From Alphaproteobacteria bacterium (GTDB lineage Bacteria; Pseudomonadota; Alphaproteobacteria; UBA6615): a DNA stretch of 64,000 bases. The stretch covers positions 1 to 64,000 of the forward strand of contig JANQOE010000062.1 in NCBI GenBank assembly GCA_028279245.1, written 5' to 3'. The notes beneath the pieces were generated by a model. That model was given only the letters and a program-made list of their open reading frames with translations, had not been told where the DNA came from and did no database searches. Below, piece by piece: positions 55,887 to 64,000 of this stretch; positions within the stretch are counted from its first letter, which is position 1, and each line of letters opens with the position of its first letter. The position numbers were made by a program, and so were the translations under genes.

Positions 55887-55900
55887 TTGACGTGCATCAA
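55887..55900. promoter_or_regulatory. FNR-type box in the antiporter/stress-protein divergent region
   Basis: TTGACGTGCATCAA, matching TTGAT-N4-ATCAA in 9 of 10 positions. 49 bp upstream of the UspA start at 55949 and 68 bp upstream of the antiporter start at 55819. Confidence 0.75.
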
Positions 55901-55948
55901 GGTGATTCAAGCCTCCCGGCGCGAAGCTGTTGGGCATAGGAGGCGGTG

Positions 55949-58135: not shown

Positions 58136-58498
58136 ATGCTAAAGACGATTCGATTGGAACTCGCCCGTACACCGGAGAACCCGGATGGTGATCCCGAACA
58201 CGGCTACGAATTCCGTGCCCCGCTCGGTGCGGACGCCCATATCGACGTCGATGAGTGGCATAAGCAGCGTCAGCACTGCACCGTCCGCCGCTTCGAGCCT
58301 GGCGAAGACGACGAGCATGGACATTTGCTCCACACCCAGGGCCGGCGCTGGATCTTTCACTACGATGGAGACGAAGATCCCGGCGAAGACGAAGCCGGCT
58401 ATCGCTTCGACAGCCATGTGTTCAAGGCCGGCGAGTATGTTTCAATCACCGAACATGACGGCGAGACACGACCGTTTCGGGTGGTCAGTGTCCGATAG
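58136..58498 (+). CDS. Conserved-looking small acidic protein of unknown function
   Basis: 120 residues, rich in D, E and H, no membrane segment or signal. It opens MLKTIRLELARTPENPDGD and has a beta-rich pattern (HTQGRRWIFHYDGDEDPGED, then HDGETRPFRVVSV). AAGGAAGCGACG precedes the ATG and it follows the third Usp gene by 20 bp, so it is part of the FNR-linked operon. I do not recognise a family. The good ribosome site, operon position and codon use support a real gene. Confidence 0.75.
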   Translation: MLKTIRLELARTPENPDGDPEHGYEFRAPLGADAHIDVDEWHKQRQHCTVRRFEPGEDDEHGHLLHTQGRRWIFHYDGDEDPGEDEAGYRFDSHVFKAGEYVSITEHDGETRPFRVVSVR

Positions 58499-58507
58499 AT
58501 GGCAGGC

Positions 58508-58521
58508 TTGATGCAGATCAT
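58508..58521. promoter_or_regulatory. FNR-type box between convergent genes
   Basis: TTGATGCAGATCAT, 9 of 10 positions of TTGAT-N4-ATCAA. It lies just after the stress operon and before the end of the convergent Fnr-type gene, so its target is not evident. Confidence 0.55.
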
Positions 58522-58555: not shown

Positions 58556-58756
58556 ATGTTCTGCAATCGAATCTACGATTTCATTTCGGGGACGGGGGTC
58601 GTACTACCGGTAAACGTCGGTCAGGAGCCCCCGATATGGGACATCGTCCGGCCCAATCAGGCCGCCCAAGACCTGCTAGCGAGGCATAGGCAGGCGCTGG
58701 CCGCGCAGTTCAGTGATAGTCGCCCGCCAGATCGTGCAAGTCCCCAAGACCAGTAA
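58556..58756 (+). CDS. Doubtful 66-codon reading frame
   Basis: Begins MFCNRIYDFISGTGVVLPVN and continues with a proline- and glutamine-rich end. The only support is its place 41 bp after the centre of an FNR-type box. Against it: no proper ribosome site (GGCAGG abuts the ATG), no recognisable domain, and its last 47 bp overlap the Fnr-type gene on the other strand. Confidence 0.2.
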   Translation: MFCNRIYDFISGTGVVLPVNVGQEPPIWDIVRPNQAAQDLLARHRQALAAQFSDSRPPDRASPQDQ

Positions 58757-59399
58757 GCTCGACCTCATGCGGCGTCTTGAGGGTGATCAGCCGCTCTTCC
58801 GTCAGTTTGGTGAAGGTACGGCTGACCGTCTCGGTCGTTAACCCGACGCAATCGGCGATATCGCTGCGTGTCATCGGCAGGTGAAGCAGGTTATCGACCA
58901 TTGTGGCGCTCTGGCGCTTGGCCAGGTTCAACAAGAAGCTGGCCACCTTCTCTTTTGCCGACTTGCGACCCAGCAGCAGGATCTGATCCTGCGCCGCGGC
59001 AAGCTCGTTCGAGGCCATGCCGAGCAGCCGTTTCTCGAGCGCCGGGAAGTCATCCAGCAAGGCCTGAAACCGGCCACGGGGGAACAGGCAGACGCGGACG
59101 TCCGTTATGGCCTCCGCGGTGAAGGCGTAGCTATCCACATAGGCCAACCCGAGGAAATCACCCGCAAATAGGAAACCGGTGACTTGCCGCCGGCCATCCG
59201 GCAACAGCTTGGAAAGCCGGACACAACCACCGGTGACGTTGTACAGGTTCGCTGCGGTATCACCTTCGAAGAATATGGTCTCTCCGGCCTCGAAGGTCTG
59301 CGCCATGACGATGGAACTGAACCGCTCCAGTTCCTCCGGGGCCAGCGCACCACAGACAGCAGTCTCTCGAATGTTGCAGGCGACACAAGGGCTTGCCAT
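58710..59399 (-). CDS. fnr: Fnr-type oxygen-responsive transcription regulator
   Basis: CRP/FNR fold: cyclic-nucleotide-like barrel (about 25-140), dimer helix, and a C-terminal helix-turn-helix. Four cysteines are placed as in oxygen-sensing Fnr/FnrL: C5, C8 and C16 (C-x2-C-x7-C, the FnrN/FnrL spacing) and C104 inside the barrel, so a [4Fe-4S] cluster is expected. The recognition helix has E190, S193 and R194 (TETVSR), the residues that read TTGAT-N4-ATCAA. The ATG at 59399 is preferred (229 residues, GGGAGGG 11 bases ahead); a GTG at 59420 overlaps that site. It is surrounded by genes with matching boxes, making it their likely activator. Confidence 0.92.
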   Translation of the reverse strand: MASPCVACNIRETAVCGALAPEELERFSSIVMAQTFEAGETIFFEGDTAANLYNVTGGCVRLSKLLPDGRRQVTGFLFAGDFLGLAYVDSYAFTAEAITDVRVCLFPRGRFQALLDDFPALEKRLLGMASNELAAAQDQILLLGRKSAKEKVASFLLNLAKRQSATMVDNLLHLPMTRSDIADCVGLTTETVSRTFTKLTEERLITLKTPHEVELTGLGDLHDLAGDYH

Positions 59400-59491
59400 T
59401 CGCCTGTGCGACCCTCCCACGAGTTGTTTCGCAGTGCATCATGCACCGCCAGCCGCCCGCCAGGCAAGCGGCGGGCCCGATTACGCGAAAG

Positions 59492-59980
59492 CTACTCCAG
59501 GCCCCCAGGTCCGCCAAGATCCTTCATGGCGTTTACCCCGGCTGCGGCATACCCGGCGACCGCCACCGGGTCGGGAAGGATCCTCAGCGGCCCCAGCGGC
59601 GCGCGCAGGTGTGAGGGGGAGAGTTCGAGGCGAATTGCCTCGCAGGAAAGCTCAGCCGCCAGCTTATCCATGGCATCCAGCAGCGACTGGGCTGTTGCGC
59701 CGTGGTTGAAGGGGTCGAACGCGACGAAATGATGCACGATCAACAGCCGCTGCGCCGGACGGCCCACCGATGTCTTGTAGACAAACAACCCTAGGATGCG
59801 CTCGTCGGGGCCGCGGGCAACCATCGCGCCGGATTTGACCGTGGCGATCGCACCTTCGGCACAGGCATTGTGAACGAAGGTCAACCATTCCTTGAGGGTG
59901 CAAGACCCGTCCACGAGGTGCAGCAGCGCGTACGCCTGATGCGCGTCTTGGGGACGGAGTGGGAGGACTCGGGTACGCAT
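59492..59980 (-). CDS. Unknown protein, possibly GNAT-fold
   Basis: 162 residues from the ATG at 59980. The order of strands and helices (RVLPLRPQDAHQAYALLHLV, ERILGLFVYKT, RLLIVHHFVAFDPFNHGATA, LLDAMDKLAAELSCEAIRLE) resembles a GCN5-type acetyltransferase, but the acetyl-CoA loop is not clearly present. No good ribosome site; upstream in-frame starts lie inside the FNR boxes at 60017-60052. It is divergent from the peptide-cytochrome pair at 60115 and may share their control. Role unknown. Confidence 0.55.
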   Translation of the reverse strand: MRTRVLPLRPQDAHQAYALLHLVDGSCTLKEWLTFVHNACAEGAIATVKSGAMVARGPDERILGLFVYKTSVGRPAQRLLIVHHFVAFDPFNHGATAQSLLDAMDKLAAELSCEAIRLELSPSHLRAPLGPLRILPDPVAVAGYAAAGVNAMKDLGGPGGLE

Positions 59981-60016: not shown

Positions 60017-60052
60017 TTGACTTGGGTCAATTCGTCCGTTGATTTGCATCAA
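60017..60052. promoter_or_regulatory. Two tandem FNR-type boxes
   Basis: TTGACTTGGGTCAA (60017-60030) and the perfect consensus TTGATTTGCATCAA (60039-60052), centres 22 bp apart. TACTAG at 60076-60081 is placed as a -10 hexamer for an activator site centred at -41.5, giving a start point near 60087 and transcription of the genes at 60115 and 60222. Confidence 0.85.
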
Positions 60053-60114
60053 CGCCATAATCGTAGCCGCATCTCTACTAGCTACGGAATGGCGGTCAAT
60101 GCTCCGGAGTCAGG

Positions 60115-60225
60115 ATGTTTCACAAGCGTTTCCTCGAATGGCAGGCGGCGCACCCCACTGTCACCTGGGTCTTCTGGATTATTGTGTGGCTCGTCGTTCT
60201 GAGCATCCTCCTTTGGCCCCGATGA
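60115..60225 (+). CDS. 36-residue single-span membrane peptide, coupled to a cytochrome c gene
   Basis: Reads MFHKRFLEWQAAHPT, then one hydrophobic helix (VTWVFWIIVWLVVLSILLW) ending PR. GGAG stands 5-6 bases before the ATG. Its stop overlaps the cytochrome c start as ATGA (60222-60225), and it is the first reading frame after a perfect FNR box with a fitting -10 element. These three signs make it a probable gene in spite of its size. By analogy with CydX- or CcoQ-like small subunits it may attach to a membrane oxidase or hold the cytochrome at the membrane, but I do not recognise its family. Confidence 0.7.
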   Translation: MFHKRFLEWQAAHPTVTWVFWIIVWLVVLSILLWPR

Positions 60226-60569
60226 ACCACCTAGCCCACGTCGTCTGTTTCGGCTGTCTGGGCCTGCTATGTCTGGCCGCTTCGGCCAGCGCCGGGGGGA
60301 CAGATATCGACGGTGCGGAACTCGCCGACCGCCTGTGCGCGCGATGCCACGACACCCGCGGACCAGGACCAAGCCCCGTCGCCGAGGCCCCGCCTTTCCA
60401 AACTGTTGCCACGCGCTGGCCGCCTGATTTCCTGGCGGAGGCGCTGGCCGAGGGCATCACGGTGCGGCACGCGGAAGACACAATCATGCCGCCGATCGAA
60501 CTACACCCCGATGAGATCAGCGCCCTGATCTCATATCTTGAGGACCTCACGGCACCGGTCGTTGATTGA
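60222..60569 (+). CDS. Exported monohaem cytochrome c
   Basis: 115 residues. Signal peptide MNHLAHVVCFGCLGLLCLAA with cleavage after ASA. Haem motif C39-A-R-C42-H43 (LCARCHDTRG) and a candidate axial methionine in IMPPIELHP; the end EISALISYLEDL is typical of class I cytochromes c. It acts in the periplasm as a small electron carrier. Translation is coupled to the 36-residue membrane peptide by ATGA, and both follow tandem FNR boxes, so it should be made at low oxygen. It could pass electrons to the cbb3-type oxidase implied by ccoI/ccoS. Confidence 0.9.
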   Translation: MNHLAHVVCFGCLGLLCLAASASAGGTDIDGAELADRLCARCHDTRGPGPSPVAEAPPFQTVATRWPPDFLAEALAEGITVRHAEDTIMPPIELHPDEISALISYLEDLTAPVVD

Positions 60570-60613: not shown

Positions 60614-61039
60614 ATGATCAGCGTCATCATTGCGGCCATTGACGGGTCCGGTTTCGGCAAGAAGGCCCTGGCGGCCGCCATCGACCTGGCAGGGAAGTAT
60701 CAGGCCCAACTCGTCATCGTGACGGTCATGCCGGACGGCAAGATCCCGATGGAACTGTATGAGTACGTTCGCACCGAGAGTCTGTACGCCGGCGAGGTCA
60801 CGGAACTGCTCCTGAACCAGGCAAAGGGCATGGCTGAAAAGGCTGGCGTCTCGAACATTGAGCTCGTGGCCAGCGAAGGCGATCCGGCGGCGGCCATCCT
60901 ACGCGCCGCGGAGAAGCACAAGGCCGACCTGATCGTCATGGGAGGCCGCGGACTGGGGACGATCGGCGAGTTGCTGCTTGGCAGCGTTTCGCAGAAGGTG
61001 ATGCACCTCGCCACGGCGCCCTGCATGATTGTTCGGTAG
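60614..61039 (+). CDS. Universal stress protein, single UspA domain
   Basis: 141 residues: VIIAAIDGSGFGKKALAAAI, then VTVMPDGKIPMELYEYVRTE and the ATP signature GGRGLGTIGELLLGSVS. It resembles the Usp protein at 55949 more than the tandem ones. The ATG at 60614 begins the conserved sequence; the frame is open upstream to 60566 but those residues are not Usp-like, and the ribosome site is weak. It follows the cytochrome gene by 44 bp, so it belongs to the same FNR-driven transcript. Confidence 0.88.
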   Translation: MISVIIAAIDGSGFGKKALAAAIDLAGKYQAQLVIVTVMPDGKIPMELYEYVRTESLYAGEVTELLLNQAKGMAEKAGVSNIELVASEGDPAAAILRAAEKHKADLIVMGGRGLGTIGELLLGSVSQKVMHLATAPCMIVR

Positions 61040-61055
61040 AGTTGGAGGGCGATGT

Positions 61056-61637
61056 ATGGCGCGGCTTCTCGACAACCTGAAACAGGAACACCAAGACATG
61101 GAGAAGCTGCTCTGTGCCTTGGAACGCCAACTGGCTCTCTTCGACGAAGGCAAACCCATCGACTACGAGATTGTCGAAGCTATCGTCGACTACAGCTTCG
61201 CCTATCCGGATCTGTGCCACCATCCGGTCGAGGATGCGATCTATGAAATTGTCCGTCAGCGGAACCCCGACGCCCTCGACCCGCGCGTCGATCTGGAGGC
61301 CGAGCACAAGCGGCTGGCGGAGCTGACGAACAAGTTCTCCTCACTCGTCAAGGCCGTCCTCCAAGAGACTCCCACACCGCGGGATTGGTTCGACAAGACG
61401 GCCAGGGACTACATCGACTTCACGCGCCATCATATGGAGATGGAGGAGAAGTACTTCTTCCCGGCGGCCGCCAGCGCGCTGTCGGATGCGGACTGGCGAC
61501 TTCTCGAGGCCCGCGTCGACAGTCAGCAGGACCCGCTGTTCAGTCCCCGAGTTCAGGACCGCTTCAAGCGCCTCCGGGACGACATACTGGCTTGGGAACA
61601 AAGCGCCGAGGCAACCGGTCAGCGCAGCAACGCGTAG
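61056..61637 (+). CDS. Hemerythrin-domain protein
   Basis: 193 residues, four-helix bundle with a non-haem di-iron site. Ligand candidates: H12 (LKQEHQDME), H56 with E60 (CHHPVEDAIYE), H84 (EAEHKRL), and H125/H126 with E130 (FTRHHMEMEEKYFFP), in the order expected for bacterial hemerythrins. The C-terminal tail (after about 150) is helical. GGAGG lies seven bases ahead of the ATG at 61056; it begins 16 bp after the Usp gene. Such proteins bind O2 or NO or help repair iron centres, which fits the low-oxygen cluster. Confidence 0.88.
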   Translation: MARLLDNLKQEHQDMEKLLCALERQLALFDEGKPIDYEIVEAIVDYSFAYPDLCHHPVEDAIYEIVRQRNPDALDPRVDLEAEHKRLAELTNKFSSLVKAVLQETPTPRDWFDKTARDYIDFTRHHMEMEEKYFFPAAASALSDADWRLLEARVDSQQDPLFSPRVQDRFKRLRDDILAWEQSAEATGQRSNA

Positions 61638-61646
61638 CCTCTGGGC

Positions 61647-62411
61647 CTATTCGGCGGCGCTGTGCGGTAACGTCCTGATATAGGCAATCACGTCGGCAAC
61701 CAGCGCGTCATCGAACACCCGCATTGCCAGCATGTCGGCGCCAGGCTGACCGTTGCGGATCTTGTGCAGCGCCTGCCACGGATTGGCATCGGCAATAGCG
61801 CCCAGCGTGCGCAAGTCGTCCGCCTCACCGTAGATCGCCGCGTCGCCGGAGAAGTTGTGGCACGCCGCACAAACATTCTGATAGATCTCGCGGCCTTTAT
61901 CCGCGTCGCCGCTCGGCACGCCGGTATTCGGATCGATGTACCCGTCCATATCTATGAGCCCTGAGGTGACGAAGAAGGCCAGCTCACGCAGGGCACTATC
62001 CGGGATCATCTCAGGACCATAGCCATGAACCTCGTCACGAAGGACGGAGGCAACGCGCTCGGGGTCTGCACCTGAGAAATCGAACAAACTTGGCATGCCG
62101 CGCACACCAACGGTGGCGCCGCTCGATCCAGCATAGTCCCAGCCATGGCAGGTCACGCAACGCCACGTCGCTGCCGGGTTCGAGCTTTGCACCGAAGGGT
62201 AGGCCGGATGCGGTGTCTCAGGCGGGCCCTGCTCCAAGACCAGCCACCAGTTGTCGTAGAGCCTGCCCCCATAGGACAGGCGCCAAGCATCGGTGGGCGA
62301 GTCCGGAATCCCATATATGTAACTTTGCCGCGTATCCAGCTCGGATTGTGCCTGCGCAGAAAGGGCCGTCAACAGCCATAAGAGAGCGGCCACCAGGCCG
62401 GTGCGGTACAA
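61647..62411 (-). CDS. Exported dihaem cytochrome c
   Basis: 254 residues. Signal peptide MYRTGLVAALLWLLTALSAQ, mature end near SELDT. Two haem motifs, C85-V-T-C88-H89 (WRCVTCHGWDYAG) and C181-A-A-C184-H185 (NVCAACHNFSGD), in two class I-like domains; candidate methionine ligands are GMPSLF and DMLAMRV. The first half, with NWWLVLEQGPPE before the haem, is unlike common diheme peroxidases or NapB/Fix-type subunits. It is 8 bp downstream of the monohaem cytochrome gene at 62420, so the two probably form an electron-transfer pair in the periplasm. Partner enzyme not identified. Confidence 0.88.
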   Translation of the reverse strand: MYRTGLVAALLWLLTALSAQAQSELDTRQSYIYGIPDSPTDAWRLSYGGRLYDNWWLVLEQGPPETPHPAYPSVQSSNPAATWRCVTCHGWDYAGSSGATVGVRGMPSLFDFSGADPERVASVLRDEVHGYGPEMIPDSALRELAFFVTSGLIDMDGYIDPNTGVPSGDADKGREIYQNVCAACHNFSGDAAIYGEADDLRTLGAIADANPWQALHKIRNGQPGADMLAMRVFDDALVADVIAYIRTLPHSAAE

Positions 62412-62419
62412 GCCCGCCT

Positions 62420-62902
62420 CTACAACTGCTGAAACGGCATCAACCGCTCGACCTCGGGCGGAATGTCGTCTTCGGTGAATCGGCGCTGTTCCGTTTGATC
62501 ATGCACAAAACCGACAATGTCGGCCAACTCCTGACCTGTCAGATCGATTCGATATCCCAAGTCGCGCTCCTGGAGCTCGATCATGCGTGGTGCGCCGCGA
62601 AACATCTGCGCGGCGAACTCGAGTGGGTTGGCGAAAGGCGGCATGCGGGCGGCATCCAACGCCGGTCCGACCTGTCCGCCGACACCATTCACGGCGTGGC
62701 AAACAACACAGCCTTTGCTGGCGAACAACGTTCGTCCTCGGCTCGAGTTGATCGCCGGCCACATAACATCCGGACCCTCGGGAAAAGACAGGCTGTAGCC
62801 GTTGTCGAGTTCTTCCACCGTCGGCGCTTCTTGCGCTACACCACTTTGCATTAGCAACAGAAAAGCGCCGGCAGACAGCGCAATCGTTCGTACCCAATGC
62901 AT
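62420..62902 (-). CDS. Exported monohaem cytochrome c
   Basis: 160 residues from the ATG at 62902, which has AGAGG five bases ahead; the longer frame from 63130 is a shadow of ccoS. Signal peptide MHWVRTIALSAGAFLLLMQS, cleaved around GVAQ. Haem motif C65-V-V-C68-H69 (KGCVVCHAVNGVGG); axial methionine probably in ARMPPFANP. The segment LTGQELADIVGFVHD closes the fold. An FNR-like box lies 55 bp upstream, overlapping the end of ccoS. It starts the two-gene cytochrome operon. Confidence 0.9.
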   Translation of the reverse strand: MHWVRTIALSAGAFLLLMQSGVAQEAPTVEELDNGYSLSFPEGPDVMWPAINSSRGRTLFASKGCVVCHAVNGVGGQVGPALDAARMPPFANPLEFAAQMFRGAPRMIELQERDLGYRIDLTGQELADIVGFVHDQTEQRRFTEDDIPPEVERLMPFQQL

Positions 62903-62956
62903 GACCACCTCTCGACAGACAAGGTGACTAGCTACGCGCCGCCGCCATACCCAACC

Positions 62957-62970
62957 ATGACGCACGTCAA
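62957..62970. promoter_or_regulatory. Imperfect FNR-type box ahead of the cytochrome pair
   Basis: On the minus strand TTGACGTGCGTCAT: the TTGA...TCA core is kept, with changes in three of ten positions. TAGCTA at 62929-62934 is centred 32 bp downstream, exactly the spacing of a -10 hexamer for an activator at -41.5. Confidence 0.55.
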
Positions 62971-63140
62971 TCCGGGCGCCCCGATGGAGGCGGGCCGGAC
63001 TCATCATCGTCAAACAAAACCCGCCGTGCGGCCCCGTCAAGGTCTTCGTATTGGCCCGAACGCAACGTCCACAAAAAGGCACAGAGGCCGAGCAGCCCGA
63101 GAAACAACGCCACGGGAATAAGAATGACAATAATGTCCAC
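62967..63140 (-). CDS. ccoS: cbb3-type oxidase assembly protein CcoS (FixS)
   Basis: 57 residues. One N-terminal membrane helix (IIVILIPVALFLGLLGLCAF), then the family signature LWTLRSGQYEDLDGAARRVL followed by FDDDE, which is diagnostic for CcoS. It is needed to insert haem and copper into the cbb3 oxidase. GTG start at 63140, three bases after the ccoI stop, so the two are translated together, as is usual. The C-terminal ESGPPPSGRPD is a variable tail. The oxidase genes ccoNOQP and ccoG/ccoH would be expected to the right of the window. Confidence 0.9.
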   Translation of the reverse strand: MDIIVILIPVALFLGLLGLCAFLWTLRSGQYEDLDGAARRVLFDDDESGPPPSGRPD

Positions 63141-63143
63141 GGC

Positions 63144-64000
63144 TCAGCGGCTGAGGCGCATGGCGTTGCCGATCACCAGCAGAGAAGATGCCGACATCGA
63201 GATCGCAGCGACCAGCGGCGTGACAAAGCCAAGCACGGCAAACGGAACGGCGATGGCGTTGTACAGGAACGACAGGCCGATATTCTGTTTGACCAAACGG
63301 CCGGCCCGCCGGGCCACATCAATTGTCTCCTGCACCGGCCGCAGTTTCGTGCCTTGGAACACAATGTCCGCCGCGGTTTGCGTGACATCGGCAGCGGTAG
63401 CCGGAGACATGGAAACCTGCGCCGCGGCCAGGGCAGGGGCGTCATTCAGACCGTCACCGACCATCAAGGGGTGCCGGCCCGCCCCGCGCGCCTGCTCCAG
63501 GTATTGCACTTTCTGATCCGGCCGTTGTCCGCCCTGCCAGTCCGCAATACCGGCAGCGGTCGCAACCTGATCGACCGTGGCGACACGGTCGCCGGACAGC
63601 AGCGTGACCGGCAAGCCGGCCTGCCCCAACTGCCGGACCACATCGGTCGCATCCGACCGCAGCGCGTCGACAAAGCTGAAACGGACCGGCGCCTTCCCAG
63701 GTTGCCGCAGCCACAGTTCCAGCCCGGTCGCACCCCCGTCATCGGTCTCGATACCGCACCAGGCGCGGCTGCCAAGGCGCACCTCTCCAGCCTCCGTAGC
63801 AAGCTGCAGACCAAGCCCCGGCTCCTCCTGCACCGCTTCCGCCGGGGTGACGTCGGGCATCGAAGCCGCAAGCGCGCGCGACAGCGGATGCCGGCTTCTC
63901 GCCGCCATTGAGGCAGCCAACGCGTGCGTGTCGGGATCGACCACCGCGCCTGACAGGACGGGGCGTCCTTCAGTGAGCGTGCCGGTCTTGTCGAACACCA
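63144..64000 (-). CDS. ccoI: P-type ATPase CcoI/FixI-like copper transporter, C-terminal part; runs off the right edge
   Basis: The visible 285 residues begin within the phosphorylation motif (VFDKTGTLTEG, the aspartate being phosphorylated) and cover the nucleotide domain (SRHPLSRAL, the HP motif), the hinge GDGLNDAPAL and the last two membrane helices, with NIGLSFLYNAIAVPFAVLGF and ISMSASSLLVIGNAMRL, as in heavy-metal P1B pumps. The upstream 60% with the metal-binding domain and CPC motif lies outside. Adjacent ccoS shows it is the CcoI branch, which supplies copper to cbb3 oxidase, rather than a resistance pump. Confidence 0.9.
   Translation of the reverse strand, partial: VFDKTGTLTEGRPVLSGAVVDPDTHALAASMAARSRHPLSRALAASMPDVTPAEAVQEEPGLGLQLATEAGEVRLGSRAWCGIETDDGGATGLELWLRQPGKAPVRFSFVDALRSDATDVVRQLGQAGLPVTLLSGDRVATVDQVATAAGIADWQGGQRPDQKVQYLEQARGAGRHPLMVGDGLNDAPALAAAQVSMSPATAADVTQTAADIVFQGTKLRPVQETIDVARRAGRLVKQNIGLSFLYNAIAVPFAVLGFVTPLVAAISMSASSLLVIGNAMRLSR

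Follow-up and report, generated by a model that had tools for sequence, protein, structure and literature searches.

A conserved alphaproteobacterial membrane peptide, 36 residues long in the window and encoded there between FNR-type boxes and a small cytochrome c gene

The window analysed here, a stretch of 64,000 nucleotides of alphaproteobacterial DNA, contains a short reading frame that was missed by gene finders and lies between a pair of FNR-type boxes and a gene for a small cytochrome c. The locus raises the question of whether this frame is a gene and what its product might do. The reading favoured here, with a probability of about 0.5, is that its product serves an electron-transport complex used at low oxygen as a small accessory subunit. 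The features of the immediate region are the following:

60017..60030, no strand assigned: second, weaker FNR-type box TTGACTTGGGTCAA with 2 mismatches, from the sequence
60039..60052, no strand assigned: perfect FNR-type box TTGATTTGCATCAA, from the sequence; no further exact match in the genome (4.34 Mb)
60076..60081, plus strand: candidate -10 element TACTAG, 23 nt after the perfect box; weak match to the consensus
60103..60108, plus strand: ribosome site CCGGAG before the peptide; duplex energy -6.1 kcal/mol, among the best 9% of window ATGs
60115..60225, plus strand: 36-aa single-helix membrane peptide MFHKRFLEWQAAHPTVTWVFWIIVWLVVLSILLWPR, on the evidence of relatives in 29 genomes, pS/pN, an AlphaFold model and a conserved helix face
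60222..60569, plus strand: small class I cytochrome c, 115 aa; Pfam PF00034 (Cytochrom_C) 3.6e-8

The peptide frame extends from the ATG at 60115 to the TGA ending at 60225. The first search for relatives located the peptide in two other genomes, whose copies are 68% and 60% identical to it, and a scan of 84,980 species yielded 20 peptide-bearing contigs, all alphaproteobacterial and assigned by their record titles to Reyranella, Methyloceanibacter, Filomicrobium, Hyphomicrobium, Kiloniellales, Minwuiaceae, Bradyrhizobium and others. The several searches combined gave 30 intact copies, distributed over 29 genomes of Alphaproteobacteria. The alignment included 22 of these 30 copies, and the pS/pN values and FNR-box counts below refer to the same 22. 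Identities ranged from 53 to 72%, lengths in the family from 36 to 55 residues, and the consensus was H[KR]xILEWQAAHPxxTWxxWxxVWxxVLxxLLxxP, with H3, L7, W9, Q10, A11, A12, P14, T17, W18, W21, W25 and P35 invariant in the aligned sequences.

The frame was without a stop in all 22 aligned loci, and its mean pS of 0.69 against a mean pN of 0.16 indicates strong purifying selection. In both shifted frames the contrast was gone and the relation even reversed, and the other frames contained stops. Since the frame is open in all the aligned relatives and the contrast is lost when it is shifted, 60115-60225 is more than a chance frame: it is a real gene. It represents a new conserved family absent from the libraries searched. 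A lack of conservation of the frame, judged by synonymous versus non-synonymous change, was to count as a refutation according to the earlier note, and the peptide withstood this check. The note had described an uncalled frame with one membrane helix; both the frame and the single predicted transmembrane helix were recovered.

Searches of Pfam and NCBIfam gave zero matches above the curated cut-offs. When Pfam was searched up to an E-value of 1, only DltX, PsbL and DUF3382 appeared, in single or few family members and without significance. The family profile, run against all PDB chains up to an E-value of 10, found no oxidase peptide but only EcfT, transhydrogenase and PsbL, all with E > 0.3; the CcoM chain was presumably among the chains covered. 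No description of the family was found in the literature searches and no copy in the plasmid search. Matches within four long frames (L022-L024 and L033) were considered as fusions that could name a partner and were rejected as chance matches of short stretches.

The distribution of the peptide is patchy. It was present in 2 of the 24 genomes of the window's own family, in 14 of the 76 genomes of Reyranellales (the order of genome G089), these being mostly Reyranella-like, and in one of the 385 genomes of an even sample of the class, which shows that it is dispensable. One genome of the window's own family also carries a decayed second copy with an in-frame TGA near groEL (L018, G013:C391:3189-3284).

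Upstream of the gene, the centres of the two FNR-type boxes are 22 nt apart, and the perfect box stands 62 nt before the start codon of the peptide, at an activating distance. The exact motif TTGATN4ATCAA occurs once in the 4.34 Mb genome, while by our estimate base composition leads one to expect about 0.6. A single exact box per genome is thus near chance when taken alone; its recurrence upstream of the relatives is not. In the 200 nt preceding the peptide, 7 of 22 loci carry a box with no more than one mismatch, as against 1.8% in controls (p = 9e-8), and 4 of 22 carry a perfect box, as against 0.5% (p = 5e-6), the controls being random stretches of the same loci. One more locus, that of genome G811, shows a perfect box at a distance of 89 nt before the peptide. 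In L052, L054 and L056 an FNR box heads an operon of two cytochrome c genes and the peptide. L069 and L070 have, behind a perfect box, an operon in which an amino-acid binding-protein gene is followed by those for the peptide and a cytochrome. In these last two loci the peptide and cytochrome c genes are flanked by two amino-acid binding-protein genes. Because about half of the peptide loci have no recognisable FNR box, FNR control of the family appears to be common and not universal.

Most of the promoter anatomy given in the earlier note holds: the tandem FNR-type boxes are present, one perfect and one with 2 mismatches, and the peptide has its own ribosome site. The note had also assigned to TACTAG the spacing expected for FNR activation, and its 23 nt do fit the ideal of about 22 nt for class II FNR promoters; as a -10 element TACTAG is mediocre, which leaves this a weak detail. 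The surroundings of the operon include the following genes:

58710..59420, minus strand: FnrL-like oxygen-sensing regulator of the FNR/CRP type with N-terminal sequence CVACNIRETAVC, by NCBIfam FnrL and Pfam
60614..61039, plus strand: universal-stress-protein-like (USP-like) gene, grouped with the USP-like gene at 55946 by all-against-all blastp
61056..61637, plus strand: hemerythrin-family gene; Pfam PF01814 1.3e-13 on 61053-61634
61647..62411, minus strand: c-type cytochrome gene with two CxxCH; Pfam PF13442 1e-13; convergent, after the cbb3 cluster
62420..63130, minus strand: c-type cytochrome gene; Pfam PF00034 2.5e-5; frame open from 63130, true start probably further in
62967..64000, minus strand: ccoS-like gene (62967-63140) and 3' part of a ccoI-like P-type ATPase gene, the end of the ccoNOQPGHIS cluster

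The regulator gene lies 0.7 kb from the peptide operon. Its product matches NCBIfam FnrL at 2.6e-57, which is under the curated cut-off, and has Pfam matches to cNMP_binding and a Crp HTH. Downstream, the operon is followed by the USP-like and hemerythrin genes and converges with the cbb3 cluster, which ends in the two cytochrome c genes. The ccoNOQPGHIS cluster is complete, running on the contig from 70486 to 62967, and begins about 2.4 kb downstream of the peptide operon; ccoN was confirmed by a curated model (contig 69083-70462) and most of the other cco names were given by inspection of the sequences. With this cluster and the FnrL-like gene nearby, the setting in low-oxygen respiration that the earlier note had proposed is borne out.

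Some further elements of the region were recorded. A gene for a protein of about 162 aa without a Pfam match (59492-59980, minus strand) is divergent from the peptide operon, shares the intergenic region with the FNR boxes, and could be under the same boxes. Two FNR-type boxes with one mismatch are present at 58508-58521 (TTGATGCAGATCAT), between the run of USP genes and the FnrL-like gene, and at 55887-55900 (TTGACGTGCATCAA), just before the USP run. Following this run there is a gene for a 120-aa protein, also without a Pfam match (58136-58498, plus strand).

The cytochrome encoded immediately after the peptide has a signal-like segment at its N-terminus, a CARCH motif and a conserved MP with the presumed Met ligand. 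Its start overlaps the stop of the peptide in the ATGA at 60222-60225, as the earlier note had stated. No separate ribosome site precedes the cytochrome start (-1.9 kcal/mol, weaker than most random ATGs), which is consistent with translation coupled to that of the peptide. The same ATGA overlap is found in L052, with the gene order reversed. SoxX, c550 and c551 are the nearest named families, all below their curated cut-offs, and fold search gave SoxAX and NorC as the best matches, class I cytochromes with weak E-values; there are no sox or nor genes adjacent to it.

The earlier note had asked whether the peptide always precedes a small cytochrome c, and it does not. In 10 of the 30 loci the gene next to the peptide encodes a small cytochrome c, and in the other 20 it does not. 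The peptide comes first in the window, L053, L069 and L070, and the cytochrome in the remaining six (L038, L052, L054, L056, L065 and L068, the contig piece of the last covering only the C-terminal part of the cytochrome). Nine of the ten cases fall within one genus-level group of Reyranellales, and the adjacent cytochromes are of two related types. Within Reyranellales, six of the eight genomes with a strong match to the window-type cytochrome also carry the peptide, located beside it, against a background of 14 peptide carriers among all 76 (P = 3e-4, kinship ignored). Five peptide genomes of the order lack an adjacent cytochrome and also any close window-type one (2.4e-17 was the best match, in G803, and the other four gave none at 1e-15), and the window-type cytochrome was rejected as an obligatory partner. 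Since each is also found without the other, peptide and cytochrome c are frequent and not obligatory partners.

Window-type cytochromes without the peptide occur, for example, near USP genes on plasmids of Methylobacterium and Sinorhizobium, and no peptide was found beside the plasmid copies of rhizobia and Methylobacterium. On plasmids of Methylobacterium, Sinorhizobium, Mesorhizobium and Bradyrhizobium (L093-L096) they lie near USP, hemN, fixJ or phosphoketolase genes. They share the motif SPLxxAPPFRTLHxRYP..LAEALxEGI and match no named family above its cut-off, and with the cytochrome of the window they form an unnamed group that is apparently one of low-oxygen cytochromes.

The AlphaFold model of the peptide (pLDDT 95) has two helices, at residues 2-12 and 14-32, which are separated by a break at H13-P14. 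In 21 of 22 sequences the N-terminal side is more positive than the C-terminal one, and the N-terminus is thus predicted to lie inside. The conserved element H[KR].ILEWQAAHP would then be on the cytoplasmic side, and the predicted periplasmic tail is variable and mostly 1-10 residues long. Along residues 15-35 conservation follows a period of 100 degrees (permutation p = 0.0003), with a Trp-rich conserved side formed by W18, W21, W25, V28, L32 and P35. Such a face implies that the helix packs on another protein or on itself. The period favours packing as such and not a respiratory partner specifically, and self-association could also produce it.

Taken together, these results suggest the following course of events. 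At low oxygen an activator of the FNR/FnrL type would bind the box at 60039 and recruit RNA polymerase. The peptide would be translated first, and ribosomes finishing it would restart at the overlapping ATG to produce the small periplasmic cytochrome c. The product of 60115-60225 would be a small inner-membrane protein with its N-terminus in the cytoplasm; the N-terminal helix HKRILEWQAAHP would be interfacial, and a single transmembrane helix would lead to a short tail in the periplasm. With its Trp-rich face the peptide may pack on a larger respiratory protein, at one of the membrane helices of the latter. It would thus act as an accessory subunit, stabilising or docking in function, in an electron-transport complex that works at low oxygen and for which the small cytochrome c would be an electron carrier, in one direction or the other. 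Of these elements, the gene itself, its association with FNR boxes and its link to cytochromes have good support. We infer that the peptide is of the kind of small one-helix accessory proteins of low-oxygen respiration. A more tentative extension, possible at best, is that peptide and cytochrome together form a portable low-oxygen electron-delivery module that can plug into any terminal oxidase or cytochrome complex its host happens to have.

Of the other explanations, the one that survives best, while still unlikely, is that the peptide is a low-oxygen stress peptide comparable to YohP, lowering membrane potential or fluidity, with the cytochrome as a mere neighbour in the regulon. The peptide is often solitary behind an FNR box, and its neighbours are partly of the stress type: USP and hemerythrin genes in the window, and FtsH, DUF892, a Na+/H+ exchanger, adenylate cyclase and others around the solitary copies, with no single gene common to these. 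The invariant W, Q, A, H and P residues and the conserved helix face, however, point to a protein partner and not to an effect on lipids, and the linkage to cytochromes is repeated.

Slightly less probable is a dedicated accessory subunit of the cbb3 oxidase, similar to CcoQ or CcoM. The peptide of the window adjoins a complete ccoNOQPGHIS cluster, a one-helix cbb3 subunit of the same length, CcoM, is known to serve at low oxygen (PMC10433244), and most of the peptide genomes have ccoN, including 15 of 20 in one set. In Reyranellales ccoN was found in 10 of 14 peptide genomes and in 50 of 62 relatives without the peptide, which is no enrichment. Moreover, among the loci read the peptide lies beside a cco operon in the window only, and the window genome has its own CcoQ. 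In six peptide genomes, all drafts, ccoN was undetected (G013, G846, G823, which is 99% complete, G791, G824 and G782); cydA was undetected in six drafts including the window genome, and both genes in G013 and G846. Draft status weakens each single absence, but jointly the absences speak against a peptide that is dedicated to cbb3 or to bd. As there are peptide genomes without detected ccoN, or without both ccoN and cydA, the peptide is not simply a subunit of either oxidase, and cbb3 or bd alone does not account for all the peptide genomes. The distribution of ccoN and cydA thus gives no support to either oxidase as an obligatory partner. The peptide may be an oxidase accessory, as the earlier note suggested; it is not the CcoQ of its genome, by motif it is not CydX, it shows no detectable relation to any PDB chain, and it occurs where ccoN or cydA was undetected.

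The earlier note had offered a membrane anchor as the other possible role. A peptide tethering the soluble periplasmic cytochrome c near an oxidase, like a split membrane-anchored cytochrome, would agree with the repeated occurrence of the two genes side by side, in either order and with cytochromes of two types, and with the overlap of start and stop in the window. The predicted cytoplasmic position of the invariant N-terminal element speaks against a simple periplasmic tether, as do the short, variable tail, a conserved helix face that a plain tether does not need, and the majority of loci without an adjacent cytochrome. The anchor, unsupported as proposed, is accordingly improbable; the accessory role remains the best guess. 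That the frame is no gene at all, but a chance frame or a leader 5' of the cytochrome on its mRNA, is very improbable, since in spite of its shortness and its lack of annotation or family in Pfam and NCBIfam it is conserved with pS far above pN, often where no cytochrome follows.

Comparison with known small membrane proteins places the peptide as follows. CcoQ is likewise a small one-helix protein, with a superficially similar end LWPR (a chance-level likeness), but it is encoded between ccoO and ccoP, where the window genome has a separate CcoQ-like frame of 51 aa, and lacks the HKxILEWQAAHP element. Two weak matches of the family (L007 and L019, E 0.06-0.6) proved to be CcoQ genes with a similar helix end, and a relation to CcoQ was rejected. 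YohP, of 27 aa, sets off metabolic silencing (PMC12719787); peptides of this type are also tiny stress-induced membrane proteins, a comparison made by description, and differ from the present family in its strong residue constraint and cytochrome linkage. CydX is a 37-aa one-helix subunit of the bd oxidase, often unannotated and sometimes encoded away from the operon, and its motif YxxWxxGx15E/D (PMC4325964) is absent from the peptide, that of the window having no Tyr at all; also cydA went undetected in six peptide genomes, that of the window among them. CcoM of Pseudomonas stutzeri, reported to be required for the stability of its complex and not for activity (PMC8267372), shares with the peptide the size, the single helix and the low-oxygen setting, and the likeness appears confined to size and setting, the peptide occurring also in genomes without detected ccoN. 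Both CydX and CcoM are one-helix subunits that were long missed and later found important for oxidase stability. The present family is spread over diverse Alphaproteobacteria and nameless in the libraries searched, and with its regulatory signature and its cytochrome partner its role is directly testable.
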